NCBI GenBank assembly: GCA_001871415.1
Contig: MNWW01000029.1
Location: 1-36,050 of the forward strand
Origin: Candidatus Woesearchaeota archaeon CG1_02_57_44
GTDB lineage: Archaea > Nanobdellota > Nanobdellia > Woesearchaeales > CG1-02-57-44
Reading direction: 5' to 3'
Length of the DNA stretch: 36,050 nucleotides
Part shown: positions 10,701 through 35,981 of the stretch, piece after piece
How the letters are laid out: each line of letters begins with the position of its first letter
How positions within the stretch are numbered: position 1 is the first letter of the stretch
Notes under the pieces: generated by a model
What the model was told of the DNA's origin: nothing
Databases searched by the model: none
What the model saw: only the letters and a program-made list of their open reading frames with translations
Translations under genes and position numbers: made by a program

Positions 10701-13700
10701 GAGCTTGACGCTGGCCACGCGAAGGTCAGGCTCTTGTTGCCCGTCACTGATCCTGAATCATTGACGTAGCTTATGAGTGGATATTGCGTATCAATGCTCA
10801 GGTTGTTGCGGAAGGTGCCATTGCTGTGGCCTGCGTAATCCGTGATGTTTGTGGTGATGTTGTACGCGCCATCGGGCAGGTCACTGTAGGCGACAACGCA
10901 GGTGGCGTTCGGGCTGCCGGTGCATGAGCCACTCAGGTTGAATCGCAGGGAGATGCTACTGAGTGTCATATTGAAGGTGGACGCGTTGATGCCATAGTTA
11001 TCGATGATGCTGATGGTGAACGAAGAGGTGTTGCTGGCTGTCGCATTGGGTATGGCGCTCAACACGATTGATGGCGCCTGGGCGTCATAGAAGGTCGTCA
11101 GGTTCCTGGTCGCGCCTGATCCGCTGGTGGATTCTCCTCGTATGCCGACGGTGTTATTGTTCGCAAAGAGCGGCAGCGTGATATTAAACCAGCCTGTCGC
11201 TGTCGACTGATTGAAGGCGCGCAGCACGGCGCCGGCTGGTATTGCCTGTTCAAGGACCGGCGAGACATTGATGCGGTATGTTCCGTCCAGCAGGTTGACG
11301 TTCTCCGTGATATTGTAGCGCAAGTACCAGCTGAGGGGATAATTGACTATCTCAATCCATAGGCCAGGGGTAAATAACGTGGCGTTCTCCTGGCTGATGA
11401 CCAGATAGTTCGCGCTCTGCGAGCTTTGCGCGGTAGTAATGCCGCTGGCGTTGAGGGTCTGGCTTCCGGTGCTGACCGCACTGCGGTTGATAGGCGTCTG
11501 CACGCCCTGTCGCGCGAACGCGAACGCGGTGCCGCTCTCATTCAGGTAGCCGACCACACTCACATTTGGCGTGGCAACAAAGGGGGGTAGGGGCCACACC
11601 GTTGGGAGCGAAGGCGGTGTGGCCACCGTGACTGTTGGGGAGCTGCGCCACTGCGAGTCATTGGCGCCAAAACTGTCTGTGACCAGGACGCTGCAGTATG
11701 CCTGATACCCTGCTGCCAGAGGGCCGTGCGTGCTTCCCACACCGTCCAGGGTGAAGCCCGAGCCGATGTTGACATACCAGTGGTACTGGCGTACGGAGGT
11801 GTTCTCGCTGTGGGATTCGGCATCGCCATAGCTGACCACGCAGCTGAGCGTATCTGTGGGGGTGAGCGTGGTCGGACTAATGGTGACATTCGCTGAAGGT
11901 CTGCTATTCACGGTGAAATTTGTTGTGAGCGTAGCGCCGGCGATCGGATAGTTGTTTGAGCAGTTGTAGCCTGCGTCGCAGATCCTCGCGTAATAGGCAT
12001 ACGTTCCCGTCGCTGTGATGGGTGTGGTGTATTTCGCGAATATGGGGTTCTGGCTGGTCAGGTCAGTGCGGTTGTAGGTGGTCTCCGCGCAGCCATTATC
12101 CTCTATCAGCGTTGAGTTGCAGATGTAGAGGCGAACCTGACTGCTGTCCGGGTCTGTCCAGTTGATGTAGAAGGTGATGTCATTGCCTGCCGCGGTCTGT
12201 TGCGTGGGGCTGGAGTCATCCCAGACCGCAGTGATATTGGGCATGTTGCCAGCGTTCGCGCTCGCGGCGATGGTAACTTTCGAGCTGTTCATGGCAGAGC
12301 CATACGCATATCCGTCATAGGGTCTGGCCTGGCAGAGCCACTGGTCGCCTGCCACGGTATTCCCGTTGGTGAGGTTGCGGTTGCTGGGGATGTCGTACAA
12401 GGAGAACGCGCCCGTACGGTTGACATACCAGGTATAGCTTACGATTACGGTCTGCGCATCGGTGTCATTGGTCGACACATTGCAATAGAGGTTCGTGGTG
12501 TCCGTGAATGGGCTTCCTGCTATCTGTATGCCTGTTATTGCTGGAGCGCGATTATAGACCAGATCGCCCTGCACTATCGACGAGCAATTGTAGCTGTCAT
12601 CGCAGGCCATCACGTAGTACGTCTCATTGGCCATATCATCGGTGAAGTGGCTTACTCTGGCGGCGCTGGCGTTGAACTCCAGGGTCGCGAGGCCGGGGCC
12701 TTCGGAGAGCGTCCTTGCGAACTCAAAGTCGAAGCAGCCGGAATTCTTGATGATGGCAGTGCTGTTGCAGATGTAGATGCGCACCTGTCTGCTGTCCGCG
12801 TCGGTCCAGTTGACCGTCCACTGTACTGTTCCGTCGACGGTCAGCGGGCTGGTGAAATTAGTGTTGTCGCTGACATTGATGATGATGGGGCTGAGCGTCG
12901 GTGTTACACCATCGATGGTCGCGCCGATGGTGGTGGTGGAGGAATTCATCGCTGTGCCAGCGCCAAAGCTATCTGAGGGGGTCACTTCGCAGATCCACTG
13001 GTCGCCGACCGCGGTGTTGCCGTGCGCGAGGACCTCAACATTGTCATTGTCGCACCAGGAGAAATCACTGCAGGAGCGGAAGCTGCTGCTGGTATTCGAG
13101 CGCACGAACCACTCATACTGATAGGTGATGCCGCCGTCAAAGCGATTGTCCTTCTGGGGCTCAAGAACAATGAGTTCACCATTATCATATTGGCTGTTGG
13201 CATTGAGATCATAATAAGAGAGGTTGGTCGCGTTCGTGATATTCTTGAGCGGCGCGTTGGCGCTGAGCAGGCCGTTGGCCTGCAGTATCACATAATCGCC
13301 TGCGGTGTAGGTTCCTGAGCCATCGCGGTCCCAGACGATGGACTCGGTCTTTGTGCCATTGTACTGGTAGATGCCATCGTTGTCTTGGTCATAGAATGTC
13401 AGGTTCTGGGATTCGCTGAAGTTGGTGAGCGCTTGGCCATTCGTGATGTTGTAGTTGTTGGTGATATCGGCATAAGGCGTCGCATTGCCGTCAGCGTCAA
13501 TGACGAGGTCGATGCGCAATTCATCAGAGTCATTGGCGGGCAGATGCATGCAGTTGAGGTTGGTGTCTGTTCCTGGTGTGCCTGAGGTGCTGGTGCTCGT
13601 TATGGCGACACTGACCATGTTCGGCATGGAATTGTTGTCCACCTGCAGGGTGCTGCTTGTTGATGCGTTCTCATGGCCTGTGGCGTTGCACCAGACCAGG

Positions 13701-15454: not shown

Positions 15455-15456
15455 TA

Positions 15457-15747
15457 TCACACCAGCTCGAACTTGCCCTGCTTTTGTTTTTGATAGCGAT
15501 CCTTTGCCGTGTCCAGGTTCTTGCGTTTCACCTTGATAGCGTCAGCTTTCGCGTCGATAGCGTCAAGCTCTTCTTTGTGGTCAGCCAGAGGCTTAGCGTC
15601 AATCTTCTTGAGAAGGATGCCCTCGTCGGTCACCACATATACCCAGAACCCGGTCCCTTCCTCGATGCCCAATTCGTCGCGCACGTCCTTTGGTATGACC
15701 AACTGGCCACGACCATCCACCTGGACCATGCGCGGGAATCGTTTCAT
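15457..15747 (-). CDS. AbrB/MazE/SpoVT-type DNA-binding regulator
   Basis: A 96-residue protein. Residues about 8-31 carry the swapped-hairpin AbrB signature: VQVDGRGQLVIPKDVRDELG, then a Gly and a segment ending in EGILLKKI. Such proteins bind DNA as dimers through interleaved beta hairpins. The C-terminal half is charged and helical (about 60-96), probably a coiled coil. Its stop overlaps the start region of the giant surface-protein gene, so the two are co-transcribed and probably translationally coupled. The simplest inference is that it regulates its own operon. No antitoxin partner is seen, so a toxin-antitoxin role is not supported. The upstream 150 bp are strikingly AT-rich compared with the GC-rich genes. 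Confidence 0.88.
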   Translation of the reverse strand: MKRFPRMVQVDGRGQLVIPKDVRDELGIEEGTGFWVYVVTDEGILLKKIDAKPLADHKEELDAIDAKADAIKVKRKNLDTAKDRYQKQKQGKFELV

Positions 15748-18574: not shown

Positions 18575-18647
18575 TTAGGCAACGGCAGACGTCATTGATC
18601 TATTGTTTTTTGAGCCTAATGCCATGCCCAACGGTTATTGGCCAACA

Positions 18648-18656
18648 TTTAAATAT
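18648..18656 (+). promoter_or_regulatory. TATA box for the translin-family gene
   Basis: TTTAAATAT is centred about 26 bp before the ATG at 18678, with no Shine-Dalgarno sequence between. This is the spacing of a leaderless archaeal message. The element is nearly symmetric and could also serve the divergent PspC remnant. Confidence 0.6.
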
Positions 18657-18677
18657 TCTGCGCTCATCGGCATTTTC

Positions 18678-19259
18678 ATGACACGCACTATCTCTAGCGC
18701 GAGGACAAGTGCTCCTGCCAGCACGTTTTTAGCCCTCAAGAAGGAATACCTGGCAGCAGACACCCAGCGTGAAAGCGTCATCCTGCAAGGTCGCAGGGTC
18801 ATCTCGGCCAGCAAGCGGGTCATACGTGACTGCTTGGGAGGAAGACAGGCAAACCTTGGTGAACTGGAAAGCGCGTTCAAATGCCTGCAGAAACTCGTAG
18901 GCTCCACGGGCATACCGCAGCCATCGTATCGCGCTGCTGCACAGGAATATTGCGAAGCCGTGTTTTTAGCAGCGTATGTGTCAGGCAAAGCGCTACCCGG
19001 GCATAAGATACTCGGTTGTGACGCTGAATCCTACATCCTTGGGTTGTGTGACCTGTCAGGCGAGATATTCCGCTATGCTGTGAATAGCGCGCTCGCCGGA
19101 GACTTTACGGTCATGGAGCGGGCGCGATTGTTCCTCGGGCAAGTCTATGACGAGCTCAGCGAGCTTCCGCTGCGCGGAGACGCCAGGCGCAAGTTCGACG
19201 GCATCAAGTACGATCTCAATAAGATGGACGACCATCTGCTGCGGAGGAAGTCTTCATGA
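18678..19259 (+). CDS. Translin/TRAX-family RNA-binding protein (COG2178-like), possible RNase
   Basis: This 193-residue all-helical protein resembles the archaeal translin family. The signature region is residues 110-185: ILGCDAESYILGLCDLSGEI, then a helix like VMERARLFLGQVYDEL, and a final helix with a KFDGIKYDLNKM pattern. Two acidic pairs, QEYCEA (Glu90, Glu93) and DLSGE (Asp125, Glu129), match the arrangement of catalytic acids in TRAX, the RNase subunit of the translin-TRAX complex C3PO. It may therefore be an active RNase on structured RNA or tRNA fragments; that is inferred from the residues. The ATG at 18678 was chosen for its TATA spacing rather than an upstream start at 18603. Its stop overlaps the next start as ATGA. 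Confidence 0.85.
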   Translation: MTRTISSARTSAPASTFLALKKEYLAADTQRESVILQGRRVISASKRVIRDCLGGRQANLGELESAFKCLQKLVGSTGIPQPSYRAAAQEYCEAVFLAAYVSGKALPGHKILGCDAESYILGLCDLSGEIFRYAVNSALAGDFTVMERARLFLGQVYDELSELPLRGDARRKFDGIKYDLNKMDDHLLRRKSS

Positions 19260-19912
19260 GCCCGCGGAGCAACACACAGCGTCCTGCCCGGGAAGTACCC
19301 CTTAAGCGCAGCGGCAAGCGCTACAGAGGTGTCTACAAGGCAGTGCTCGGCATGGCCAAGGTCAATGCAAAGAGCCGCAGGGGTGGCCTCTTTATCATCG
19401 CACCGCAGGCTGCGCTCGCAGGAAAGTATCGGATGCTCTATACACGGATATTGCCAGAGATCAAAGTGATGGACGCTGGTGCCGCCGCGGTCATCGAGCA
19501 TCTCAGCACGCTTGATGGCGCGATCATTGTCTCAGACACAGGGACGCTGCTTGCCTATGGCGCCATGGTGCGAAAGACCAAAGCGCTGCGCGGGTTTGGT
19601 ACCAAGCATGCCGCGGCTGCGGGCGTCACCTCTGGTTGCAAGGGTTCCACGGCGATTCTTGTCCCAGAGCATGAGGACTGGATAAAAATCTTTCAGGACG
19701 GTCACATCGTTCTTGAGATGGACAGCGCGGCGCAACCAAAAAGTGTGGAAGATAAAGTGGTCTCGTTCCTAGCAGACCGCGATACCGCGCTGCTGACCGC
19801 GGCTGGAGCATCAGCAGCGATACTAGGCATCGGTCCTGCGCTGGTCATCGGCGGTACCTACCTTGCCATCAGAACCGCCACAGGACTTATCAAGAGGAAT
19901 ATCGCTAAGTAG
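19256..19912 (+). CDS. DisA_N/DacZ-like diadenylate cyclase, C-terminally membrane-anchored
   Basis: The central region (about 40-160) matches the DAC domain that joins two ATP into cyclic di-AMP. The DGA motif is at residues 87-89 in LDGAIIVSDTGTLLAYGA, and the ATP-binding RHR-type motif appears as GTKHAAAAG at 115-123, followed by the usual strand AILVPEHEDWIKIFQDG. Archaeal DacZ enzymes have similar HAAA-type variants, so activity is plausible although the first Arg is Lys. Residues about 178-206 are strongly hydrophobic and may be one membrane helix or helical hairpin; a basic tail follows. The gene starts within the translin stop codon (ATGA), with GGAGG 8 bases upstream, so the two proteins are made together. 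Alternative: a degenerate, non-catalytic DAC. Confidence 0.78.
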   Translation: MSPRSNTQRPAREVPLKRSGKRYRGVYKAVLGMAKVNAKSRRGGLFIIAPQAALAGKYRMLYTRILPEIKVMDAGAAAVIEHLSTLDGAIIVSDTGTLLAYGAMVRKTKALRGFGTKHAAAAGVTSGCKGSTAILVPEHEDWIKIFQDGHIVLEMDSAAQPKSVEDKVVSFLADRDTALLTAAGASAAILGIGPALVIGGTYLAIRTATGLIKRNIAK

Positions 19913-22250: not shown

Positions 22251-22835
22251 ATGGCATCCATGTTTCGCGAGGTTATTGTCTTTTTCGGGGATTTAGGAAT
22301 CTATGATGTTGTCCTGCCCTTCCTGCTTGTCTTCACCATCATGTTCGCGGTGCTCGAGAAGAGCAAGATACTAGGCATGGAACACATGTCGGACGGTAGC
22401 AAGGTCACCAAGAAGAACCTGAACAGCATGGTCGCGTTCGTGGTCGCGTTCTTCGTTGTCGCCTCCAGCCAGCTCGTCGGTATACTCAATGAGGCGCTTG
22501 GCAACATCGTCATTGTCATGATGGTCTCGGTCAGCTTTCTGTTGCTCATCGGCACATTCTACTCTGATGATGAAGAAGTGTTCCTGCAGGATGCCTGGCG
22601 AAAACTGTTCATGGTGCTCATGTTCATCGGTGTTCTGCTCATCTTCCTGCACGCGGTCAAGACCTCTGACGGAACGCCATGGCTAGAGTGGTTCTGGGAC
22701 TGGCTGGTCGGCAACTGGGACTCCACAGCAGCGTCCAGCATCATCATGATTGTCGTGCTTATCGCAATCCTCTATTACATCACCAAGGACAATAAGCCTA
22801 GAGTCGCTGTCAAGGCTCCTGCCAAGAAGGAGTGA
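22251..22835 (+). CDS. Small multi-pass membrane protein, first of three paralogue-like genes
   Basis: A 194-residue protein with about five hydrophobic helices. The first is LGIYDVVLPFLLVFTIMFAV, followed by EKSKILG and a polar loop ending in KKNLN, then VAFVVAFFVVASSQLVGIL, an IVIVMMVSVSFLLLIG helix, VLMFIGVLLIFLHAV and a C-terminal SIIMIVVLIAILYYI with a basic tail. The first helix plus the ILG...KKNLN motif is repeated in the gene at 23024. I know no biochemical function. Such proteins sit beside pilus-like ATPase and platform genes here, so a structural or export role is inferred only from position. The start is fixed by a TATA box 35 bp upstream. Confidence 0.85.
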   Translation: MASMFREVIVFFGDLGIYDVVLPFLLVFTIMFAVLEKSKILGMEHMSDGSKVTKKNLNSMVAFVVAFFVVASSQLVGILNEALGNIVIVMMVSVSFLLLIGTFYSDDEEVFLQDAWRKLFMVLMFIGVLLIFLHAVKTSDGTPWLEWFWDWLVGNWDSTAASSIIMIVVLIAILYYITKDNKPRVAVKAPAKKE

Positions 22836-22971
22836 ACTTTTTGCTTTCTGGATAGCCTGTATACTAGTGCCTCGCAGCATTCGTTTCTGAGCGCCACTCC
22901 AGGATCATCGGGGTGCTTGGGGCTGGTGTGGGCTGTCATGGCCCTGCAGGTGGCAGGTGCTGACAAGAGTT

Positions 22972-22981
22972 AAATATATAT
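22972..22981 (+). promoter_or_regulatory. TATA box for the second and third membrane-protein genes
   Basis: AAATATATA lies about 47 bp before the ATG at 23024. Transcription near 23004 would leave a short leader that contains a strong GGAGGT Shine-Dalgarno sequence (23011-23016), 7 bases before the ATG. The 188-bp gap after the preceding gene starts with a short T5 run (22837-22841) and otherwise holds nothing I recognise. Confidence 0.6.
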
Positions 22982-23023
22982 ACCAGTAAACACGAAGGGA
23001 CATCATAGCAGGAGGTATCACCC

Positions 23024-23623
23024 ATGGTATACAACTTTTCAGACTTTTTTCAGTTTCTTGACCGAATCGGCGTGCTGTATGTTCTTGTACCGTTCTTCCT
23101 CATCTTCACCATTGTTTTTGCGATACTGCAGAAGACAAACATCCTGGGGGAGCATAAGAAGAACCTGAATGTCATCCTTTCGCTCATCCTGGCGCTGGCG
23201 GTCGTCATTCCCCATGTCACTGGCGCGTATCCCCCGGGTGGTGATGTCGTCAACATCATCAACGGCGCGCTGCCAGGGGTTTCACTGGTGCTCGTGCTCA
23301 TCATCTGCACTCTGCTGTTGCTGGGTATCTTCGGCATCGACCTGAAATGGATGCCGTTTCCGGGAGGTATCCTGAGCCTGGTCGCGGCGCTCGTGGTCAT
23401 CGCAATCTTCGGCTACAGCGCTGGCTGGTGGTGGGGCGGCGGGTTGCCATCAACGCTCTCTTGGCTCGATGACCCTGACGTGCAGGCGCTCGTGCTCATC
23501 ATCCTGGTGTTCGCTATCGTCATCGGCTATATCACACGCGAACCAGGAGACAAGGAAGCCGCCAAGACCCAAAAGAATTTCATGGAGTCATTCGGCAGGA
23601 TGTTCGGCGGCGGAGAGAAGTAG
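23024..23623 (+). CDS. Small multi-pass membrane protein, second of three
   Basis: A 199-residue protein with about five helices. Its N-terminus (IGVLYVLVPFFLIFTIVFAI, then QKTNILG and KKNLN) aligns with the gene at 22251, which indicates common descent. Later segments are VILSLILALAVVIP, LVLVLIICTLLLLGIFGI, ILSLVAALVVIAIFGY and ALVLIILVFAIVIGYI. A WWWGGG turn faces the outside by simple topology rules. The C-terminus is charged, with a KKEE-like cytosolic tail ending GGGEK. The function is unknown. A perfect GGAGGT ribosome site fixes the start, and the third gene begins three bases after its stop codon's first base, so the pair is one operon. Confidence 0.87.
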   Translation: MVYNFSDFFQFLDRIGVLYVLVPFFLIFTIVFAILQKTNILGEHKKNLNVILSLILALAVVIPHVTGAYPPGGDVVNIINGALPGVSLVLVLIICTLLLLGIFGIDLKWMPFPGGILSLVAALVVIAIFGYSAGWWWGGGLPSTLSWLDDPDVQALVLIILVFAIVIGYITREPGDKEAAKTQKNFMESFGRMFGGGEK

Positions 23624-23625
23624 CC

Positions 23626-24216
23626 ATGGCCAGTTTCCTGGACCTGTCGCTGTTTTCCCATTTTCATATTATTTTTACCTTTCTTCTTGTGCTAGTGGTC
23701 ATGATAGGCGTTCTCACACACTACAAGCCTTTTGGCGATAAGTTCCCTGGCTACTGGGTCATCGCAGCGGTCGTCGCCTTCTTCACACTCTATTCCCCGA
23801 CCGTTGTTGGTACCATCACCAACATGGCCCCTTGGTTTGTCATGATACTCATGTTCTTCGTGTTCCTCATCATCACCTACAACCTGCTCGGTGTGGAGAT
23901 GGACTGGATAGGCCAGCACGTCACTGCGACGAGCGGCCTGAAATGGGCAGTGTTCATCATCGCGGTCATCCTATTCATCATGAGCATCTCCGGCAGTGTC
24001 GGCCCGAAGCTCGCGAAAGGTGAAGTTTCCGGCACATCTGATAACATCGGATCGGTCATCTACAATGATGGCACGGTAGCGACGACGCAATCTCAGGATT
24101 TCAGCCAGAACGTCTATGCCTTCTTTTTTCACCCAAAAGTGCTGGGCATGCTCTTCATCATGATACTCGCCATCGCGACGGTGGGATTGATGAGCTCGCA
24201 GAAAGGCGCGATGTAG
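23626..24216 (+). CDS. Small multi-pass membrane protein, third of three
   Basis: A 196-residue membrane protein with about five helices: IIFTFLLVLVVMIGVLTHY, YWVIAAVVAFFTLYSP, PWFVMILMFFVFLIITYNLL, WAVFIIAVILFIMSI and a C-terminal VLGMLFIMILAIATVGLM. Between the fourth and fifth helices is a polar loop of about 45 residues that predicted topology places outside. Size and layout match the two preceding genes, although sequence similarity is weaker. It follows the second gene with a two-base gap (TAG-CC-ATG), so it is translated from the same message. I do not recognise a named family. Confidence 0.85.
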   Translation: MASFLDLSLFSHFHIIFTFLLVLVVMIGVLTHYKPFGDKFPGYWVIAAVVAFFTLYSPTVVGTITNMAPWFVMILMFFVFLIITYNLLGVEMDWIGQHVTATSGLKWAVFIIAVILFIMSISGSVGPKLAKGEVSGTSDNIGSVIYNDGTVATTQSQDFSQNVYAFFFHPKVLGMLFIMILAIATVGLMSSQKGAM

Positions 24217-24397
24217 AAGGGTGTCCGCGGTCTCTCTGCTCAGCGTTGCTCTGCGTTCTCGGCAATTCCGTTCTCGCCAATTCACTTCTCTATGTCATGG
24301 CCTGTTCCATCTTGGCTCTGGCGGTATAGAACGTAGTATCGTACAGGGCTCCGTTTGCTCATAGTAGTCTACTGGGCATAGAATCTACTGGGTTCTA

Positions 24398-25111
24398 TTA
24401 GAGCCTTCCCGCGAGGTCTCCTGGCTGGGGTCTGCGGGTCGCTGACGGAGAGTTGTCTGGTTGCCTGCTGCCGGTATCTGGCTTGATGCCCTTCATCTCG
24501 CTGGTCAGGCGGGAGAGCTCGTTGATGTTCTCGGTGAACGTCGGCAGGACTTTCTGGAAGACCTTTTCCATGGCCTTTATCTCCGTTCCCACATTGGTGA
24601 TGTTCTGGTCGTATTCAGAGATCTTGCCCAGAATCGCCTTATGCAGGTCAGTGAACTCTGATTTCAGGTCATTCATCTCCTGTTCGAGCTGCGCGAGCTT
24701 CTGGTCTACTTTTGATTTCCATTCGATTATCTTGTTGATGTTCTTGACCAGCTCGTTCCACTTCTCCTCGATAACAGCCTCGACGAGCTCTTCGATATGC
24801 GTGCCGGAAAAGCCAGGATCCTGGCTCATGCCCTGGCCCATCATCGTGCCCATGCCCTGGCTTTGTGGTGGACCCTGCATGGGTGGGCTTGCTGGCGGTG
24901 ACTGCGGCATGGGATTCTCTATTCCCTGCGGCGAGAAATCATCACCATACTGGCCGGAGACACCAGATTGCATGTCGGCCTGGTTCATTGCGTCAAAGAC
25001 GTCTTGGGGAGAGAAACCCTGCTGCTGCAGGTTATGGATTATCTGATTCGGAGAGACACCCTGGCTTCGCATCTGCATCACCAGGTCGGTTGCTGAACCA
25101 GGAGGGGCCAT
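24398..25111 (-). CDS. Coiled-coil protein with N-terminal helical module
   Basis: 237 residues in three parts. Residues 7-47 form a small helical module (LVMQMRSQGVSPNQIIHNLQ then QGFSPQDVFDAMNQA) of the type also present in the giant protein's tail and in the protein at 28652. Residues about 48-100 are a Pro/Gln/Gly/Met-rich linker. Residues 105-215 are a long coiled coil with Lys/Glu heptads (IIEWKSKVDQKLAQLEQEMN). There is no membrane segment. Its position next to another coiled-coil gene and pilus machinery suggests a FlaC/D/E-like cytosolic accessory, but that is inference. A TATA-like CTTTAAAAAC (25133-25143) is centred about 27 bp upstream of the ATG, so the message is probably leaderless. 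The gene converges with the membrane-protein operon. Confidence 0.85.
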   Translation of the reverse strand: MAPPGSATDLVMQMRSQGVSPNQIIHNLQQQGFSPQDVFDAMNQADMQSGVSGQYGDDFSPQGIENPMPQSPPASPPMQGPPQSQGMGTMMGQGMSQDPGFSGTHIEELVEAVIEEKWNELVKNINKIIEWKSKVDQKLAQLEQEMNDLKSEFTDLHKAILGKISEYDQNITNVGTEIKAMEKVFQKVLPTFTENINELSRLTSEMKGIKPDTGSRQPDNSPSATRRPQPGDLAGRL

Positions 25112-25132
25112 GGAGTATTTTGGGTGCCCAGT

Positions 25133-25143
25133 GTTTTTAAAGG
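25133..25143 (-). promoter_or_regulatory. TATA box for the 237-aa coiled-coil gene
   Basis: Minus strand CCTTTAAAAAC, about 27 bp upstream of the ATG at 25111, without a ribosome-binding site between. It fits a leaderless transcript. Confidence 0.6.
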
Positions 25144-25209
25144 TTTCTCCCTAAAACAGTGATTGGCCAGGCAAAGAACTGTTGATTGCAGCGCGTTGTG
25201 GCGTGTATG

Positions 25210-25734
25210 CTACTCCTGTCCTGCTGTTGGGGATTCCTGGGATGCCTTATGCTCAGCGGTGATTCTCCGGGCTATCCTCTCCGCCTCTTCATAGCTCACA
25301 AAGCTTGTCGGGTCCCAGAGCGAGAGGTACTTGTCGAGGACCTGGATCTCCGAACGCCTGGCGCATCCCGCCAGCTCCTTGAGGATCAGCGTCGCTGTCT
25401 GGCGCAGTTGGGCAAGCTCGCGCTTGGCGTCCGTAAAACCTTCTCGGATTATCTTGATATCGCCGCCCAGTTTCTTGTGGCTGGAAAGCAGGTTCTCGTC
25501 TATGACCTGCAGCCTGCGCCGCAGGTTGATGTAGCGCTCTTCCAGGACTCTCAGGCGCCTGCTCACGCTGTTTATCTCTTCCTGCAGGGGATTGGCTGAG
25601 GGCGCGGCAGGGGTCCCTCTCGGTTGTTTTGCCTGCTTCTGCGCTCTTCCCTGCTTCTGGGCTCCTGGCAGTGATGGTATGCCTTGCGGTCCGAGAGGGG
25701 AAGGCGCTGTCGAATCCTGGCTGGTGAGCTGCAT
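25210..25734 (-). CDS. Coiled-coil protein, possible FlaC/E-like archaellum accessory
   Basis: I place the start at the ATG at 25734 because a TATA box (GTATAAAAAGT on the plus strand, 25756-25766) is centred about 26 bp upstream; a longer open frame to 26082 would cross the divergent promoter and the regulator gene. The resulting 174-residue protein has a Pro/Gln-rich N-terminus (1-50), a long helical coiled coil (about 50-120) and a short C-terminal domain with LDKYLSLWDPTSFVSYEEAE. The LW-x-P-x-x-FV-x-x-EEAE pattern is reminiscent of the C-terminal domain of archaellum FlaC/D/E proteins. This similarity is weak and by eye, so treat the function as tentative. The gene is divergent from the ATPase operon. 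Confidence 0.78.
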   Translation of the reverse strand: MQLTSQDSTAPSPLGPQGIPSLPGAQKQGRAQKQAKQPRGTPAAPSANPLQEEINSVSRRLRVLEERYINLRRRLQVIDENLLSSHKKLGGDIKIIREGFTDAKRELAQLRQTATLILKELAGCARRSEIQVLDKYLSLWDPTSFVSYEEAERIARRITAEHKASQESPTAGQE

Positions 25735-25755
25735 GGGTGGTTCTTGGGAAGGGAT

Positions 25756-25766
25756 GTATAAAAAGT
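25756..25766 (-). promoter_or_regulatory. TATA box for the 174-aa coiled-coil gene
   Basis: Minus strand ACTTTTTATAC, about 26 bp before the ATG at 25734. It supports the short start and a leaderless message. Confidence 0.6.
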
Positions 25767-25884
25767 TACCCACTGGGGTCCCTGTAGCTTGATCGCATTG
25801 TGCGGTGGTGTCGATGTCAGCGACCGAAACCATTATAAGGTGAATATGATAAAATACAGTTGATGGCAGGAAATACTCTTCATC

Positions 25885-25900
25885 ATATAAAATATATTTT
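25885..25900 (+). promoter_or_regulatory. TATA box of the RHH-ATPase-platform operon
   Basis: ATATAAAATATATTTT sits in a 223-bp divergent intergenic region. Transcription would begin near 25915, giving a leader of about 43 nt that contains a GGAGGTGG Shine-Dalgarno sequence (25940-25947). The region between the two divergent TATA boxes is AT-rich and is the logical binding site for the ribbon-helix-helix regulator encoded just downstream. Confidence 0.6.
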
Positions 25901-25957
25901 CTCATATGTACGGGGCTTGCTGCGCGAGCTTCGCTTTGCGGAGGTGGCTGGGCAGCC

Positions 25958-26107
25958 ATGAAAAAGCCGCTCTCTGCCACGGTCGACGCGTCGCTCGTCA
26001 GCTGGATAGACAAGAAGCTCAAGGGCAGCCCGCGCTTTCGCAACCGCAGCCACCTGGTGGAGACAGCGCTTCGCAAGTTCATCGACGACTATCAGGAGGA
26101 GTCCTGA
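25958..26107 (+). CDS. Ribbon-helix-helix (CopG/MetJ-like) regulator, 49 aa
   Basis: A short gene that is easy to overlook. The ATG at 25958 follows a GGAGGTGG ribosome site and opens a 49-codon frame ending TGA at 26105-26107. The start MKKPLSATVDASLVSWIDKK gives the beta strand plus first helix of a ribbon-helix-helix fold, and RFRNRSHLVETALRKFI gives the classical turn and second helix (S-x-L-V-x-x-A-L-x-x-F). Such proteins bind operators as dimers through the paired strands. Being first in the operon directly before the secretion ATPase, it probably regulates this operon and perhaps the divergent coiled-coil gene. No toxin gene adjoins it, so an antitoxin role is less likely. Confidence 0.82.
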   Translation: MKKPLSATVDASLVSWIDKKLKGSPRFRNRSHLVETALRKFIDDYQEES

Positions 26108-26209
26108 TGGTCGTCCTACGACGTATGGACCCTGGTGGTACTGCTCTCTGCGGTATCAACTCTTCTTGCATTCTGGGTATTGCAGGTGTCACCCCGGAGG
26201 CTGACCGCC

Positions 26210-28471
26210 ATGCCTGAAGGCTACGACATCCTGCACGAGGGTGAGGACGTCATATTGCGCATCGACGCTGAAAAAGCGGCGTATGTCCCGAGCCTGGAGG
26301 ACTCAGCGCTCTGTATGGGGGACACGGTAGAGAAACTCGCTGAGGCGGGACGCGTCACGAAAATTGTCTTCACGCAGAAACGGGATTACGAGTATGACCA
26401 GACGCAGACCGAGATGCTGATGGAGATAGCCAAGCTCTACAATCAACTCATACGGCAGAAGAATATGCTGGGCTACTACGCGCTCGTCATGCCCGGCTGC
26501 GAGAACTACGCGAACGCGCGTTACAATGAATTGCAGCAGGTGGTCTTTCAGCTGCTCAAGAGCGACCCTCTTGGCTGCTATGTGGAGCTCAAACGCATCT
26601 ATCGCCATGAACGCATCAGCGCCGCCAAGAGCTTCAGCGAGCAGGAGGCGGCCTGCATCAAAAAGTACATCGGTGTGCTGCGTTATCTGCTTGGGCAGCT
26701 GGACGCGACCAAGCTCATCCAGATGGCCAAGAGTCTGCTCGGAGGCTATCAGATGGGCAATAGGGATCCTTATCAGAAACTCTTCTCGCCCAGCATCAAG
26801 CCTGATTTCATGTTCACCAAGCTCATGGCGACGTATCCTGCGGACGCTGAAGAGCTGGACACCTATATCATTGACGATACTGAAGTCTCCATCTTCTCCC
26901 TGCCCGACAGCATCCAAAGCCTCTATCATATCATACCGCCGGAATTCAAGCTCACGGAGGACAAATACGACCTGCTGGATATCGCGCGCAAGATAATGAG
27001 CGAGCACAAGCCCAAGCGCGCCGAATTCACTGATCCCAAACGCATGCGTGAGGTCTTTGGCAATGTCGGTCATGACCTGCTCGAGGAGCTCGCGGGCTAT
27101 CGCAACCTGCGTCTGCGGGAAAAGGAGCTTGATCAGCTGACGCAGATACTGGTGCGCTATACGGTCGGCTTCGGTCTCATCGAGGTCATCCTCAAGGACG
27201 AGCTGGTCCAAGACATCACCATCAACAGCCCTATGGGCCGCATCCCCATCTTCCTGGTCCACGCCAAGTTCGACGACTGCATCACCAATATCGTCCCGAC
27301 GGAAGGCGAGGCTGAATCCTGGGCGTCAAAGCTTCGCCTGATGTCTGGAAGGCCCCTTGACGAGGCGAATCCCATCCTGGACACGGAGCTTGAGCTGCCA
27401 GGAGCGCGCGCGCGCGTCGCGGTCATATCAGAACCCCTGAATCCTACAGGTCTGGCCTACGCGTTCCGTCGTCACAGGGACAAGCCCTGGACCTTGCCTT
27501 TATTCATGAAGGCGCGTATGATAAACGCGCTGGGCGCGGGGCTCATGAGCTTCCTCATCGACGGCAGCCGCACCCTGCTCGTCGCAGGAACACGCAGCGC
27601 TGGTAAGAGCTCGTTGCTCGGCAGCGTGCTGGTGGAGATCATGCGCAAGTATCGTATCCTCACTATCGAGGATACGCTCGAGTTGCCAACCACCGCATTG
27701 CGCAATCTTGGCTATAACATCCAACCCCTGAAAGTCGCGTCAGCCCTCACCAAGGGCAGCAGCGAGGTCTCCGCGGACGAGGGCATCAGGACCACGCTGC
27801 GCATGGGTGACTCCTGCCTCATCGTCGGCGAAGTCAGAAGCACGGAGGCCGCGGCGCTCTATGAGGCCATGCGCGTGGGCGCGCTGGCTAACGTTGTGGC
27901 GGGCACTATCCATGGCGACTCGCCCTACGGCGTCTATGATCGCGTGGTCAATGACCTGAAGGTACCGCGCACGAGTTTCAAGGCCACGGACATCATCATG
28001 GTGGCCAATCCCCTGCGTAGCCCTGACGGTCTGCACAGGTGGCGGCGCGTCACCCAGATAAGCGAGGTGCGCAAGAAGTGGGAAGATGACCCGCTCATCG
28101 AAGGAGGGTTTGTCGATCTCATGAAATACGATTCCCTCACGGATGAGCTGCAGCCCAGCACGGACCTGATGAACGGCGACTCTGACATCCTCAAGAGCAT
28201 CGCCGCCAATGTCAAGGAGTGGTCTGGCAACTGGGACGCTGTCTGGGGCAATGTGATGCTGCGTGCCGATATCAAGCAGGACCTGCTCGACCTCTCCGAG
28301 AAGGCGAAGAACCCGGAGATGCTCGAGGCGCCCTTCGTCATCCAGGGCAATGACCAGTTCCATCGCATCAGCTACAAGGTGCTTGAAGAGACCGGAGGCC
28401 TTGAGCCCAAACGCATCCGTTTTGAGTGGAACGATTGGCTCAAGGACGCGGCGAAGAAGACGTTCAAGTGA
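26210..28471 (+). CDS. FlaI/TadA/VirB11-like secretion ATPase
   Basis: A 753-residue ATPase of the type II/IV secretion family that powers pilus or archaellum assembly. After an N-terminal region of about 330 residues comes the family N-domain, then the catalytic core: Walker A GTRSAGKSS (about 460-468), an Asp box in TIEDTLELP, Walker B CLIVGEVRS (about 537-545) and a His box GTIHGDSPYG (about 565-574). FlaI proteins are usually 500-600 residues; both the N-terminal region and about 130 C-terminal residues are longer here. The ATG at 26210 was chosen for its GGAGG at 26196-26200, nine bases upstream. A GTG at 26135 in the same frame would add a hydrophobic helix. It should sit on the cytosolic face and drive the platform protein encoded at 29260. 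Confidence 0.92.
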   Translation: MPEGYDILHEGEDVILRIDAEKAAYVPSLEDSALCMGDTVEKLAEAGRVTKIVFTQKRDYEYDQTQTEMLMEIAKLYNQLIRQKNMLGYYALVMPGCENYANARYNELQQVVFQLLKSDPLGCYVELKRIYRHERISAAKSFSEQEAACIKKYIGVLRYLLGQLDATKLIQMAKSLLGGYQMGNRDPYQKLFSPSIKPDFMFTKLMATYPADAEELDTYIIDDTEVSIFSLPDSIQSLYHIIPPEFKLTEDKYDLLDIARKIMSEHKPKRAEFTDPKRMREVFGNVGHDLLEELAGYRNLRLREKELDQLTQILVRYTVGFGLIEVILKDELVQDITINSPMGRIPIFLVHAKFDDCITNIVPTEGEAESWASKLRLMSGRPLDEANPILDTELELPGARARVAVISEPLNPTGLAYAFRRHRDKPWTLPLFMKARMINALGAGLMSFLIDGSRTLLVAGTRSAGKSSLLGSVLVEIMRKYRILTIEDTLELPTTALRNLGYNIQPLKVASALTKGSSEVSADEGIRTTLRMGDSCLIVGEVRSTEAAALYEAMRVGALANVVAGTIHGDSPYGVYDRVVNDLKVPRTSFKATDIIMVANPLRSPDGLHRWRRVTQISEVRKKWEDDPLIEGGFVDLMKYDSLTDELQPSTDLMNGDSDILKSIAANVKEWSGNWDAVWGNVMLRADIKQDLLDLSEKAKNPEMLEAPFVIQGNDQFHRISYKVLEETGGLEPKRIRFEWNDWLKDAAKKTFK

Positions 28472-28563
28472 GGCAAGACGCGAATCACTATCACAGGAAA
28501 CACATCCACAGAAGATCTGGGCCGATAGGGGATACGTTTCCTATCAAAAAAGAGGCGCATACG

Positions 28564-28662
28564 GTGAACAAAGAGGTGATGGCAGCTGTTGCAGGAGTGG
28601 CGACAGCCCTGTCGGCTATTGAGGGATGGTCCGTCGCCAGGAGGATGGCGCATGCAGTCTGA
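28564..28662 (+). CDS. Possible 32-aa small hydrophobic protein
   Basis: Between the ATPase and the next membrane protein, a GTG at 28564 (or ATG at 28579) opens a short frame ending TGA at 28660-28662. It encodes an Ala/Val-rich helix (VMAAVAGVATALSAIEGW) and a basic end. AGAGG lies upstream of the GTG, and the frame overlaps the following start by 11 bases, a layout common in operons. Against it: it is very short and matches no family I recognise. It could be a small membrane subunit of the machine or chance. Confidence 0.3.
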   Translation: MNKEVMAAVAGVATALSAIEGWSVARRMAHAV

Positions 28663-29263
28663 CGAGCACATCCTGCATTACATCGCGCAGCAGCTGCGCG
28701 ACGGTGAGGATCCTGCCCAGGTGCGTGAGTTCCTGCGCAGCAGGCATATCCCCCTGGTCACTATCAGGCGATTGTTCGCAGAAGCAGAGCAAGCTGTTGA
28801 ATTCGAGACAGCGACTGCGAAGCATCACAGCACCGCGCTCTTTGACGTGGCTTTGCTCATCTTATTCCTCTACAATATCCTCCTGCAGGCGCTGAGTACG
28901 CTCGCCATCGCGGTCAATGGGTGGCTCGCTTTCATCGCCTTGCCGCTGGGTATGTGCTTTGGTTATCTCGCATCGCACCTGCTGCATCGCACTGGCGCGG
29001 GACCCACCCGTATCGCCCGGTTGGGATTCCTGCTGTTTCCGTCGTCGCTGCCTTTTGTGCTGTTCCTTCCTGCATTGTTCGTGCAGTATTCCCTGGCCTA
29101 CGCGTACCTCGCCATGGTGCTCTACTACTTCGGCATGAACGGGATGTTTCTGCGCTTTCATCAGCGCAGCGAGCATGACCTGCGCACTGTCCGGCATCTG
29201 GCGCTCGAGGGACTGACATTCATCATGTTGCTCGCAGCGCTGCTCACGGCGGTGATCCTGTGA
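28652..29263 (+). CDS. Membrane protein with N-terminal helical module, between ATPase and platform
   Basis: A 203-residue protein whose first 48 residues are cytosolic and form a helical module: ILHYIAQQLRDGEDPAQVRE, then FLRSRHIPLVTIRRLFAEAE. This closely resembles the second module in the giant surface protein's cytoplasmic tail. About five membrane helices follow, for example LLILFLYNILLQALSTLAIAV, WLAFIALPLGMCFGYLASHLL, a long hydrophobic pair around FVLFLPALFVQYSLAYAYLA, and a final LTFIMLLAALLTAVIL. The ATG at 28652 follows GGAGG (28640-28644) with a 7-base gap. Its stop overlaps the next start as GTGA, so it is made together with the platform protein. No named family is recognised. 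Confidence 0.85.
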   Translation: MQSDEHILHYIAQQLRDGEDPAQVREFLRSRHIPLVTIRRLFAEAEQAVEFETATAKHHSTALFDVALLILFLYNILLQALSTLAIAVNGWLAFIALPLGMCFGYLASHLLHRTGAGPTRIARLGFLLFPSSLPFVLFLPALFVQYSLAYAYLAMVLYYFGMNGMFLRFHQRSEHDLRTVRHLALEGLTFIMLLAALLTAVIL

Positions 29264-31470
29264 ACCAGGACGACATCAACCTCCTGCTGGAGCGTTACAA
29301 GCAGAAGATAGAGACTGAACTCGCGAGAGACAAGCAAGGCGATGTGGCCGGCCAGGCGCCTATCCAGACGCGTAACTACCAGGACTTCAAGGAGGAGGTG
29401 CTCAGCAGCAGGCACACGTTCTATGAACGGCTGTGCAATGGCTGCGAGCGTATCATCAAACCGCAGGTGTCAGCCAAACGCCGTGGGCCCATTGTCGATG
29501 CCATCGAGAACGCGCATCTGTCCATCACCCCTGAAGGAGCTGCCAGCCTCGCGCTCATCGCGCCGTTGACCATCATCCTGCTGGGGCTTTTTTTCTTTGG
29601 CATGCTGCCCTTGCTCTTTGGCAGCGCGCCCCAGATGTTCTTTGTCGTCATGACTCTGCTCACTGGCGCGGGCATCGCGCTTCCGTTGGCTAACATGCCC
29701 TTGACTATCGCTAATAGCTACCGACTGAAGGCGAGCAACCAGATGGTGCTGTGCATCTTCTACGTGGTCACGCACATGCGCCACAATAGCAACCTCGAGC
29801 TCGCTGTCGACTTCGCGTCCGAGCACATCGGGCCGCCGCTGAGCCTTGACATGAAGAAAGTGCTCTGGAATGTCGAGACTGGCAAATATGATACGATCAA
29901 GGAGGCGCTGGAAGTATATCTTGACGGCTGGAAGAAATGGAACCTTGAGTTCGTCGAATCATTCAATCTCATCATCTCGTCGCTGTATGAGAACAGCGAG
30001 GAGCGCAGGCTCAACGCGCTGGACAAGTCGCTCACCATCATCCTGGAGGAGACGTACGAGAAGATGCTGCATTACGCGCAGAACCTGCAGAACCCCATGA
30101 ATATGCTCACCATGCTGGGTATCATGCTCCCTATCATGGGGCTGGTCATATTGCCGCTCGCGCTTAATTTCCTCAGCAGCATCAAGTGGTATCACATCAT
30201 GGCCATCTATGATGTGCTGCTGCCTGCCATCGTCTACCTCTATGGCATCAGCATCCTCAACACAAGACCGACGGGCTATGGCGAGACGGACATCTCTGAA
30301 TCCAATCCTGAATTCGCCAAGTACAAGAACATCGTGCTGCACATCGGCGGCAGGGAGGTGCTGGTCAGCCCAGCCATGGTCTCGCTGATGGTGTTTGGTG
30401 TGCTCCTGTTCATCGGCCTGCTGCCATTGCTGCTGGGAAGAATCATCCCGCAGCAGACGCTGCTGAATGAAGGGTTCATCATCGAGAGCATGCGCATGAA
30501 GTTCCTCGGCTACAAGCTGACCAATGAGCCAGGCAAGTCCTTCATGGTCGGACCCTATGGCATCGGCGCGTCCGTGCTCAGCCTCTTTGTCACGTTGTCG
30601 CTGGGGATCTCGCTTGGCATGTACTTTCGCAACCGCTCGCGCAACCTCATGAAGATACGCGAGAACAGCAAGAAGCTCGAGTCAGAATTCGCGTCGTCGC
30701 TCTTCCAGCTCGGAAACCGGCTGGGCGACAACATCCCCGCGGAGATAGCGTTCCAGAAAGTGGCGGACGTCATGGAAGGCACCACGTCCGGGGATTTCTT
30801 CAAGGTCGTGAGCATGAACATACGGCGGCTTGGCATGGGCCTAAAGGCGGCGATCTTTGATCCCCGCATCGGAGCGCTCGTCTATTTTCCATCGGATCTC
30901 ATCAAGAGCAGTATGAAGGTGCTCGTGGAGAGCGCGCGCAAGGGGCCTGTCATCGCCAGCCAGGCGCTCATATCGGTCAGCGAGTATCTCAAGGAGATGC
31001 ATCGCATCGACGAGCGCCTCAAGGATCTGCTCGCGGAGATAATCAGCGGCATGAAGAGCCAGACCAGCTTCATGGCCCCTGCCATCTCAGGCATCGTCGT
31101 GGGCATCACCAGCATGATAACCTTCATCCTCGCTGAGCTCGGCACGCTCATGAGCGACCTGGGCAAGGAGCAGGCAGCGGCAGGCGGGCAGTCCATGGCA
31201 GGGCTGCAGATATTCGGGAACGCTGATCCTATCCCCACCTACTACTTCCAGCTCATCGTCGGCATCTATATCGTGCAGCTGGTCTATATCCTCACGGTCA
31301 TGCAGAACGGCATCGAGAACGGCGCGGACAAGCTCAACGAGCGCCACCTGCTCGGGCAGAACATGATCCGCTCCGTAGTGCTCTACTGCATATTGGTCCT
31401 TATCGTCATGTTCATCTTCAACTCCATCGCAGGCAAGATACTGGCGAGCACTGCGCTGGCCGCAGGATGA
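29260..31470 (+). CDS. FlaJ/TadC-like platform protein with two T2SSF domains
   Basis: A 736-residue integral membrane protein that should anchor the pilus or archaellum ATPase in the membrane. About nine hydrophobic segments are visible: two near 94-145, two near 281-335, one near 375-393, one near 433-453, and three near 607-634, 662-680 and 708-730. Between the membrane groups are two large charged helical cytosolic regions (about 150-280 and 455-605) corresponding to T2SSF repeats. The second contains the typical FQLGNRLGDNIPAEIAF pattern. Archaeal FlaJ is nearer 500-570 residues, so this is longer, and it has a 90-residue soluble N-terminus. The GTG start overlaps the preceding stop (GTGA). 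It is the last clear gene of the machine operon. Confidence 0.92.
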   Translation: MNQDDINLLLERYKQKIETELARDKQGDVAGQAPIQTRNYQDFKEEVLSSRHTFYERLCNGCERIIKPQVSAKRRGPIVDAIENAHLSITPEGAASLALIAPLTIILLGLFFFGMLPLLFGSAPQMFFVVMTLLTGAGIALPLANMPLTIANSYRLKASNQMVLCIFYVVTHMRHNSNLELAVDFASEHIGPPLSLDMKKVLWNVETGKYDTIKEALEVYLDGWKKWNLEFVESFNLIISSLYENSEERRLNALDKSLTIILEETYEKMLHYAQNLQNPMNMLTMLGIMLPIMGLVILPLALNFLSSIKWYHIMAIYDVLLPAIVYLYGISILNTRPTGYGETDISESNPEFAKYKNIVLHIGGREVLVSPAMVSLMVFGVLLFIGLLPLLLGRIIPQQTLLNEGFIIESMRMKFLGYKLTNEPGKSFMVGPYGIGASVLSLFVTLSLGISLGMYFRNRSRNLMKIRENSKKLESEFASSLFQLGNRLGDNIPAEIAFQKVADVMEGTTSGDFFKVVSMNIRRLGMGLKAAIFDPRIGALVYFPSDLIKSSMKVLVESARKGPVIASQALISVSEYLKEMHRIDERLKDLLAEIISGMKSQTSFMAPAISGIVVGITSMITFILAELGTLMSDLGKEQAAAGGQSMAGLQIFGNADPIPTYYFQLIVGIYIVQLVYILTVMQNGIENGADKLNERHLLGQNMIRSVVLYCILVLIVMFIFNSIAGKILASTALAAG

Positions 31471-33893: not shown

Positions 33894-33910
33894 AGCCATG
33901 GTTGAATAGC

Positions 33911-34717
33911 ATGCAAACGAGCCGTCTGGAGTTCCAGGACCGCATCGAATATATCCCCCTGGAGCATCTCCGCTATGCGCCGGGGAGGATACGCCAGCGA
34001 ATCAACCCGGAAGACGTGCGGAGCCTAGCCAGGACCTTCCAGACCTTTGGCATGATGCAGCCTCTGGAGGTCAATGAGCGCGATGAGGTCATCCTCGGCA
34101 CGAGGCGTCTAGCGGCGGCTAAGCTCGTCGGCCTCTCACCTATCCCGGTCATCCGGCGCAGCGTGCCTGAGCTCTACTCCCTCGAGAAGCAGCTGGTCTC
34201 TGATCTGCACACCAGGCATCTCACGATACTGGAACGCGCGCATGCGTTCCAAAACCTCCTGGAGCTCACCGGCATGAGCAAGTACGCGCTGGCCAAATAC
34301 CTCAGCCTCTCGTCGAATCTCATCTGCAGGACACTCGCTATCCTCAAGGCCAACCCCACGACCATCGCGCTGATGGAGGAGGGCAAGATAAGCCAGCGCA
34401 CCGTGACTTCGGTGCTCTACCGGCTCAAGGACAAGAGCAAGGAGGACTGGCTGATAGGCAAGATAATCCGCGAGAAGCTGACGGTTCGTCAAGCCGAGCA
34501 GCTGGTGGCGGAGATCAATGATACAGCCATACTCGCGAAGCATTTCATGCGTCATGTGCGCAGCTTCCGCACGAGTGTCACACACTTCCAGGAGAAGCAG
34601 CATGCGGTAGGCCTTGAGCCCTGCGAGCGCGCGCTCATGGAGAAAGAGCTCTCGCTCACCCTTGACCTGCTAAGAGAGACGCGCAAAGGCATCGCGTCGC
34701 CTGCCCGCGAAGGTTGA
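33911..34717 (+). CDS. ParB-domain DNA-binding protein
   Basis: 268 residues. The ParB/Spo0J N-terminal fold spans about 13-100: EYIPLEHLRYAPGRIRQR, a LARTFQTFGMMQPLEV helix, the GTRRLAAAK box at 63-71 (equivalent to GERR-x-RA) and a VSDLHTRHLTILERA segment that replaces the ENLQR box. A helix-turn-helix follows (SKYALAKYLSLSSNLICRTL, about 123-142) and a helical C-terminus, probably for dimerisation. Such proteins bind centromere-like repeats for segregation or act as regulators. No ParA is encoded here, but five 21-nt repeats lie just downstream. An upstream TTG at 33902 is a possible start. The GTRR substitution may affect CTP binding, which in canonical ParB relies on GERR. Confidence 0.87.
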   Translation: MQTSRLEFQDRIEYIPLEHLRYAPGRIRQRINPEDVRSLARTFQTFGMMQPLEVNERDEVILGTRRLAAAKLVGLSPIPVIRRSVPELYSLEKQLVSDLHTRHLTILERAHAFQNLLELTGMSKYALAKYLSLSSNLICRTLAILKANPTTIALMEEGKISQRTVTSVLYRLKDKSKEDWLIGKIIREKLTVRQAEQLVAEINDTAILAKHFMRHVRSFRTSVTHFQEKQHAVGLEPCERALMEKELSLTLDLLRETRKGIASPAREG

Positions 34718-35003: not shown

Positions 35004-35981
35004 ATGAGCAGCGACCTCCATAGCAGGCTGGACGACACAACAATTAAGAATGGGCAGGCTATGCCACCTTCTGTGGCATCGACAGAAAAGCATGAGCCAA
35101 GAAGCCGCGTCCGCAAGCCGCAGCCAGGCTCCGGTTTTGCAGGTCAGCCAGCAACGTATCTTCGAGTCCTGCACGAGCATCGCAGGTTGTATCTCACGCT
35201 CCCCTTGGTAGGACTGCTGCTCGGCGCGCTCGCCGTCGTGCTCATCCCCCCACGATACGAGTCCACCGCTGTTGTCGAGCTCGCCCGGGTCAATGGCGGC
35301 TATGTCATCACTCCCATAGAGACACGTGAGCTGCTCAGCAGCGGACTGCTGCTCTCCGACCCGCTCAAGGACTTCAACATCTCGGATCATCTCGTCACCT
35401 TCATCGACAACAATCTTGACATCGAGCTCGTCAAGGAGGAGGTGGACTATCACAAGTTCTCTGTCACTCCCTATGTCAGGATCCGCCTGCGCGCCGACAC
35501 CCCGCAGCGCAGCCACGACATCCTGTCCCGGCTGGTCGAGGGCTTCCTCTCCCTGGAGGCCCTCGAGTACAATGAGCAACGAAGCCTGCTCATCACCTCC
35601 CAGGAGCGCAGGTCGCAGCTCGCCGACGAGCATGAGGCCTCCCGGAGGCAGACCATCGCCCTGTTGGACGCGCAGCTTGAGAGCGCCAGGGGCCTTCTTC
35701 AGAACACGACAGACGCCAGCGCGGCGCAGCTGCAGCTCGCCGCGCAGCAGTACATCACGGACATGGACGCGCAGCACGACGCCATCTACGAGCTGGAGCA
35801 GCAGAACCTGGAGGGCAAGCTCTCCCTCGAGGACCAGTTGACGCGCACCAAGCCCTTCCGTATAATAACACCGCCCACGCTCGCGCCGCACCAGGTCTTC
35901 CCCCGTCCAGGCATCCTGCTCGTGGGAGGATTCATTGGAGGCCTGCTCATCGCGCTGCTGTTCACGCTACGGGACGATTGA
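35004..35981 (+). CDS. Wzz/GumC-like polysaccharide co-polymerase
   Basis: 325 residues with the layout of polysaccharide chain-length determinants: a polar cytosolic N-terminus (1-60), transmembrane helix 1 (about 62-81, LYLTLPLVGLLLGALAVVLI) followed by PPRYES, a large mostly helical external region (85-290) with a coiled-coil-like stretch at about 185-285, a Pro-rich PFRIITPPTLAPHQVFPRPG motif before helix 2 (about 302-321), and a short RDD tail. The Pro/Gly-rich pre-helix motif is the family hallmark. In bacteria these proteins set the length of surface polysaccharides. Here there is no attached tyrosine-kinase domain and no Wzy or Wzx gene in view. The ATG at 35004 was taken; Met20 is an alternative. 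It is the last gene in the window. Confidence 0.87.
   Translation: MSSDLHSRLDDTTIKNGQAMPPSVASTEKHEPRSRVRKPQPGSGFAGQPATYLRVLHEHRRLYLTLPLVGLLLGALAVVLIPPRYESTAVVELARVNGGYVITPIETRELLSSGLLLSDPLKDFNISDHLVTFIDNNLDIELVKEEVDYHKFSVTPYVRIRLRADTPQRSHDILSRLVEGFLSLEALEYNEQRSLLITSQERRSQLADEHEASRRQTIALLDAQLESARGLLQNTTDASAAQLQLAAQQYITDMDAQHDAIYELEQQNLEGKLSLEDQLTRTKPFRIITPPTLAPHQVFPRPGILLVGGFIGGLLIALLFTLRDD

Follow-up and report, generated by a model that had tools for sequence, protein, structure and literature searches.

Little is known about the surface machine by which DPANN archaea attach to the cells that they live on. Two conserved type IV pilus-like loci have been described in the cluster 2 DPANN, one of which ('locus 2') combines CpaF, TadC and two coiled-coil proteins, the latter being likened to viral attachment proteins (Hamm et al. 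2024, PMC11291902). For archaeal type IV pili it is common that pilin genes stand alone and that an A24 peptidase is encoded elsewhere (Makarova et al. 2016, PMC4858521). Here we analyze a nine-gene locus within a stretch of 36,050 nucleotides of Candidatus Woesearchaeota archaeon CG1_02_57_44 (contig MNWW01000029.1; the whole stretch is referred to as the window). By composition and range, as compared with the published description, the locus appears to be a member of the 'locus 2' kind, and it likely constitutes the core that assembles a type IV (pilus-like) filament of the Nanoarchaeia, acting in trans on pilins that are encoded elsewhere. The predicted motor, platform, prepilin peptidase and N-termini of class III type, as well as the conserved linkage, are established at the level of sequence.

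The nine genes have intact frames and occupy positions 22251-31470 of the window. They encode three membrane proteins (P1, P2 and P3, forward strand), two coiled-coil proteins (CC1 and CC2, reverse strand) and, again on the forward strand, a ribbon-helix-helix (RHH) protein, a secretion ATPase, a 203-aa protein and a platform protein. Conservation was evaluated in 60 relatives from the order, each from its own family, and in 119 genomes from the phylum. The platform was recovered in 59 of the 60 order relatives, mostly with 45-56% identity, the ATPase is 52-68% identical across the ~60 families, and the P2 family is present in 58 of the 60 order relatives and 117 of the 119 phylum genomes. The order +P1 +P2 +P3 -CC1 -CC2 +ATPase +platform recurs in the neighbourhoods of 40 order members and is also found in other orders of the class. 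Within the 80 best-matching contigs, mostly of Ca. Woesearchaeota, the platform directly follows the ATPase in 53 of 65 loci. CC2 is transcribed divergently from the ATPase in 46 of 63 testable loci, and CC1 lies upstream of the ATPase, beyond CC2, in 48 of 63. P3 is located upstream in 35 of 48 loci, as are P1/P2, at a distance of up to 5.5 kb, in 36 of 48. Such identity of platform and ATPase across ~60 families with the order kept is far beyond chance. Given this identity, the spread of P2 and the preserved gene order, the cluster is a widespread core unit.

An earlier sequence-only reading of this DNA had recognized the FlaI-like ATPase and FlaJ-like platform together with the RHH gene, the two divergent coiled-coil genes and the three membrane protein genes, and this composition stands with all frames intact. 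It had also called the cluster a candidate lineage-specific machine and the link between the membrane proteins and the ATPase positional only. The first claim is contradicted by the occurrence of the cluster throughout the order and beyond it, in further orders of the class, and by the match to the described cluster 2 DPANN locus (PMC11291902). The doubt about the membrane proteins is answered by the fact that P1-P3 co-occur and hold their place across orders of the class. The comparison of neighbourhoods that the same reading had proposed as a check came out positive, as P1-P3 and the coiled-coil genes accompany the ATPase and platform in relatives.

The ATPase was recognized above the cut-off by PF00437 (E 4.5e-14) and matched the TadA model (E 5.8e-31). 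Profile searches against the PDB connected it to GspE2 (2oap, 4.5e-34), CpaF (8rkd, 4.7e-27) and FlaI (4ii7, 2.1e-19). The Walker A motif reads GTRSAGKSS, the alignment columns G460/G465/K466 and E541/R543 are invariant, and the Walker A and B motifs that mark the GspE/PilB/FlaI-type ATPases of the type IV filament superfamily are both present. With 753 aa, the protein exceeds the remaining secretion ATPases of the genome (500-560 aa), and the platform (736 aa) likewise exceeds a T2SSF platform encoded in the same genome (559 aa), in agreement with the greater length noted before. In the ATPase tree, the ATPases of the locus and of related loci cluster together and separately from the other motors (support 100/100); within this clade the branching order is unsure because of long branches. 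One of its members is the ATPase of locus L317 in relative G079, in which the platform gene is followed by two KG-type pilins, one of them with a weak UpsA match.

The platform sequence has diverged too far for the Pfam T2SSF model (E 0.078 only) and a profile search against the PDB returned nothing useful. Its profile matched a joint profile of the related-locus platforms plus one T2SSF protein of this genome (99.9%); direct alignment (hhalign) with that T2SSF protein by itself gave no match. Two helical repeats are seen in the AlphaFold2 model (pLDDT, the predicted local distance difference test score, 79.5), the cytoplasmic domain of which resembles the cytoplasmic domains of OutF (5nbg; prob 1.00, TM score 0.76, 2.8 A) and EpsF (2vmb; prob 1.00, TM score 0.74), a fold match that places the protein among the GspF/PilC/FlaJ platforms of the type IV filament superfamily. 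A second platform paralogue, ~30% identical, was observed in three relatives (L314 of G004, contig 160 of G043 and contig 115 of G055). By homology, a hexameric ATPase of the FlaI/CpaF type would work beneath a two-repeat platform of the FlaJ/TadC type.

The ATPase also matched the FlaI model (E 1.8e-32) and the cytosolic coiled-coil partners recall FlaC/D/E, so that an archaellum-type rotary motor with parts lost or replaced had to be considered. We judge this extremely improbable: the FlaI score amounted to 112.8 bits, far under the required 550, and FlaD/E (PF04659) was found in 0 of the 60 relatives, whereas the control was positive in Methanocaldococcus and Haloferax. Moreover, the Pfam/NCBIfam searches revealed no FlaF, FlaG or FlaH among the open reading frames (ORFs) of the locus, a genome-wide search for these three not having been made. 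The locus is not an archaellum, in line with the initial remark that it differs from the usual one.

The sequence-only reading had noted the absence of a pilin and a prepilin peptidase. This holds for the locus but not for the genome, which encodes a PibD-type peptidase on contig 54 (15260-15598, PF01478 E 1.8e-13) and proteins with a class III signal on contigs 30, 39, 50 and 77 (cleavage sites were judged by eye and motif, without a trained predictor). The latter include, besides a large KRGQLTIFIIV protein on contig 77, the paired PILQME and PILMGE pilins of contig 50 and a KGQAAMEFLMTYGWAI pilin that is encoded close to another motor. The suggestion that the substrates lie elsewhere is thereby upheld with respect to the genes; that they are handled by this motor is what we infer. 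The peptidase was found in 55 of the 60 relatives and the pilin operon in 52, this genome included (contig 50). The operon specifies proteins of ~330 aa, ~165 aa (PILMGE) and ~170 aa (PILQME), often followed by pilins of ~90 aa. A family of large proteins (600-1400 aa) that start with K(K/R)GQ(V/I)TxFIIxG, here called KGQ proteins, is present in 49 of the 60 relatives; the members tested had no Pfam match. They sit in rows with secreted proteins of 800-1600 aa (L310, L312, L313, L318, L261). As a rule, KGQ pilins are not found inside the motor neighbourhoods. In G004 a platform paralogue and several pilin-like ORFs follow the ATPase, downstream of the motor cluster.

The genome under study cannot settle the substrate question because it encodes four further clear T2SSE motors (a sixth match adjoins a MutS-domain ORF). 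Eight relatives possess only this ATPase according to the PF00437 model at the threshold used on draft genomes (G007, G012, G018, G019, G026, G030, G031, G038), and in a ninth (G037) even the locus ATPase stayed under the threshold, though the gene is present. All nine encode the prepilin peptidase, eight have KGQ large proteins and six have clearly kept the PILMGE pilin. The genome of G019 (three contigs, estimated 100% complete and read nearly whole) holds one ATPase and one platform, and it was the one scanned genome-wide for class III signals: more than 10 ORFs with a KG/KA-type signal were found in two clusters, plus three large ones. One of its pilin clusters includes a pilin-like protein that carries a domain of lytic transglycosylases (SLT; L280, 13245-15827); as a general substrate this protein was rejected, since it occurs in G019 only (0 of the 59 other relatives).

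We thus favour a machine whose subunits would be class III-signal pilins made elsewhere, cut by a single PibD-type peptidase and polymerised in trans by this motor, as the phylogenetic profiles and the genomes with this sole motor suggest. Several observations argue in the opposite direction. Pilin and peptidase are absent from the locus. G055 (98% complete) has platform and motor without a match for the peptidase or PILMGE, and G040 (97%) has pilins and peptidase without a match for the platform or P2. Most genomes carry other T2SSE motors able to serve the pilins, 'only ATPase' depends on draft genomes and the PF00437 model, and the class III sites are assignments by eye and motif. No filament has been observed, and we know of no counterpart of P1-P3 in the characterised type IV pili.

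The abundance of large proteins could point instead to secretion or surface display as in a type II secretion system. In that case no long filament would be built, and a short pseudopilus would serve to export or anchor both the giant secreted proteins and the KGQ proteins of 600-1400 aa. The presence of KGQ proteins in 49 of the 60 relatives and in eight of the nine sole-ATPase genomes, beside secreted proteins of 800-1600 aa, fits that explanation. We nevertheless deem it unlikely, considering that the separate operon of small pilins (with members of ~90 aa) is near-universal, several sole-ATPase genomes included, and that Sec signals would carry giant proteins over a single membrane unaided. 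A wider form of the filament reading, which we put forward tentatively and with the balance somewhat against it, is that of a Nanoarchaeia-wide class of filament machines in which the P1-P3 trio is a core part, perhaps by encircling the platform as a ring and gating or energising the extraction of subunits, and which would serve both the dispersed small pilins and the 600-1400 aa class III-signal surface proteins to hold the host cell.

P1-P3 each have ~5 transmembrane helices, and P1 and P3 are paralogues of P2 (hhalign prob 99.9 and 98.9, respectively). The AlphaFold2 model of P2 is middling (pLDDT 73, predicted TM score 0.46), and a fold search of the PDB with this model gave only matches with E>2 to bundles like those of G-protein-coupled receptors and no match to a known fold; a profile search of P2 against the PDB was not useful either. 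Neither P1-P3 nor CC1, CC2 and the 203-aa protein could be assigned to a credible Pfam/NCBIfam family, and weak matches among them to acyltransferase, DUF2070 and coiled coils were judged to be chance. The P1-P2(-P3) genes sit apart from the motor in G036, G053 and G019, which would fit a separate membrane process of P1-P3 and CC1-CC2 as mere neighbours of the motor. This we consider improbable, given that distant orders show the same gene order with the frequencies listed above for P1/P2 and CC1, and that the detached P proteins adjoin pilin-like ORFs in G036, where two KG-type ORFs lie close downstream of P1-P2, and in this genome. The latter case concerns a fourth P-type membrane protein, also a P2 paralogue, on contig 30 (L223, 4832-5739), flanked by a large surface protein on one side and a KGQ pilin-like ORF on the other. 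Within the favoured filament assembly core, P1-P3 probably surround the platform as a complex in the membrane. In several relatives a translin homologue lies directly beside P1; in the window a translin-family protein (18603-19912, +) adjoins a protein with a DisA_N/DAC-type diadenylate cyclase domain.

The nature of CC1 and CC2 was assessed from 23 and 25 relatives, respectively. None of the 48 sequences contains a signal peptide, transmembrane helix or other hydrophobic segment (maximum 19-residue hydropathy 0.93 for CC1 and 1.19 for CC2), and because of this both proteins should be cytosolic. Hamm et al. 2024 (PMC11291902) reported a structure-based resemblance of Nanohaloarchaeum coiled-coil proteins to the viral sigma-1 protein and proposed that those of the DPANN loci form attachment fibres outside the cell. 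For CC1 and CC2 such a surface role is argued against by the lack of export signals, and a coiled coil will match many unrelated ones, which makes attachment fibres very improbable here. Rather, the two probably serve the ATPase of the proposed filament machine as a scaffold or coupling ring. That CC1 and CC2 are paralogues was unsupported (prob 13%). The N-terminal module of CC1 shows a likeness, suggestive only (E ~0.001-0.01), to the predicted cytoplasmic tail of a giant protein encoded in the window (4565 aa, 1763-15460, -). This protein has an N-terminal signal-like segment, Cys-rich 'CxDxIxNQxETGxDCGGPC' repeats and a C-terminal transmembrane helix, and its tail comprises two three-helix modules with a RecX_HTH1 match (E 4e-6). 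In 48 of 128 loci an RHH homologue is encoded immediately ahead of the ATPase gene and in its orientation, and this position accounts for 48 of the 51 RHH matches found; the protein probably regulates the divergent CC2/ATPase promoter.

The predicted membrane protein between ATPase and platform, with a 4-nt overlap with the platform start, had been recognized before, though it was described as having five helices, where we count ~6 hydrophobic segments. As homologues are absent from every locus examined, and ATPase and platform genes nearly touch in most relatives (gap <150 nt), the 203-aa gene is an insertion private to this genome and the sole private part of the cluster. The coordinates of all genes are collected in Table 1. 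Most likely the ATPase starts at the ATG at 26210 and not at the GTG at 26135, because the alignment of the relatives begins there. Aligned relatives likewise place CC2 at 25210-25734, whereas a longer ORF reaching 26082 runs antisense across the RHH gene. Farther downstream, a ParB-like protein and a Wzz-like chain-length protein (33902-34717 and 35004-35981, +) adjoin a gene of the membrane-metal hydrolase-like (YdjM) type.

Table 1. Genes of the locus, with positions in the window and the evidence for each assignment (TM, transmembrane)
Gene product	Position	Strand	Evidence
P1, five-TM membrane protein, 194 aa	22251..22835	+	ORF; family alignment; P2 paralogue; usually first gene of P1-P2-P3 row
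P2, five-TM membrane protein, 199 aa	23024..23623	+	58/60 order relatives; 117/119 phylum genomes; AlphaFold2 model
P3, five-TM membrane protein, 196 aa	23626..24216	+	P2 paralogue; conserved C-terminal 'HPKVLG' motif
CC1, predicted cytosolic coiled-coil protein, 237 aa, N-terminal three-helix-like module	24398..25111	-	Family alignment; hydropathy
CC2, predicted cytosolic coiled-coil protein, ~174 aa	25210..25734	-	Family alignment; hydropathy
RHH regulator (putative), 49 aa	25958..26107	+	Homologues at same place upstream of ATPase
Secretion ATPase, T2SSE; FlaI/CpaF/GspE2 type, 753 aa	26210..28471	+	PF00437; PDB profile matches; Walker A
203-aa polytopic membrane protein between ATPase and platform	28652..29263	+	No homologue in examined loci
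Platform protein, T2SSF/FlaJ/TadC type, 736 aa, two repeats	29260..31470	+	59/60 order relatives; AlphaFold2 fold match

The near-universal motor locus, the near-universal pilin operon and the few sole-ATPase genomes together provide a small, testable parts list. In comparison with known systems, the locus shares with the Tad pilus (CpaF/TadA, TadB/C) an ATPase that matches the TadA model and CpaF structures, but where the Tad pilus has TadB plus TadC it has one platform protein with two repeats, and TadE/F, RcpA and TadZ were not seen. With the archaellum (FlaB-FlaJ) it has in common a FlaI/FlaJ-like core and cytosolic coiled-coil partners, whereas the relatives lack FlaD/E, and FlaF/G/H and archaellin are absent from the locus. 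The T2SSE ATPase and TadC/FlaJ platform are likewise found in archaeal type IV pili (PilB/TadC; PMC4858521), from which the locus is set apart by the constant five-helix trio and the two divergent coiled-coil genes, by the longer ATPase and platform and by a platform that lies beyond the Pfam T2SSF model. The closest likeness is to DPANN 'locus 2', which is known from Woesearchaeota, Pacearchaeota, Nanoarchaeota and others and which also combines ATPase, platform and two coiled-coil proteins without a pilin, being described as lacking FlaF and PilA. P1-P3, the RHH gene, the private 203-aa gene and an in-trans pilin operon are unmentioned in the main text of that paper (PMC11291902). To the published description the present analysis adds the constant association of P1-P3 with the locus, the RHH gene linked to it and a defined set of candidate in-trans substrates.

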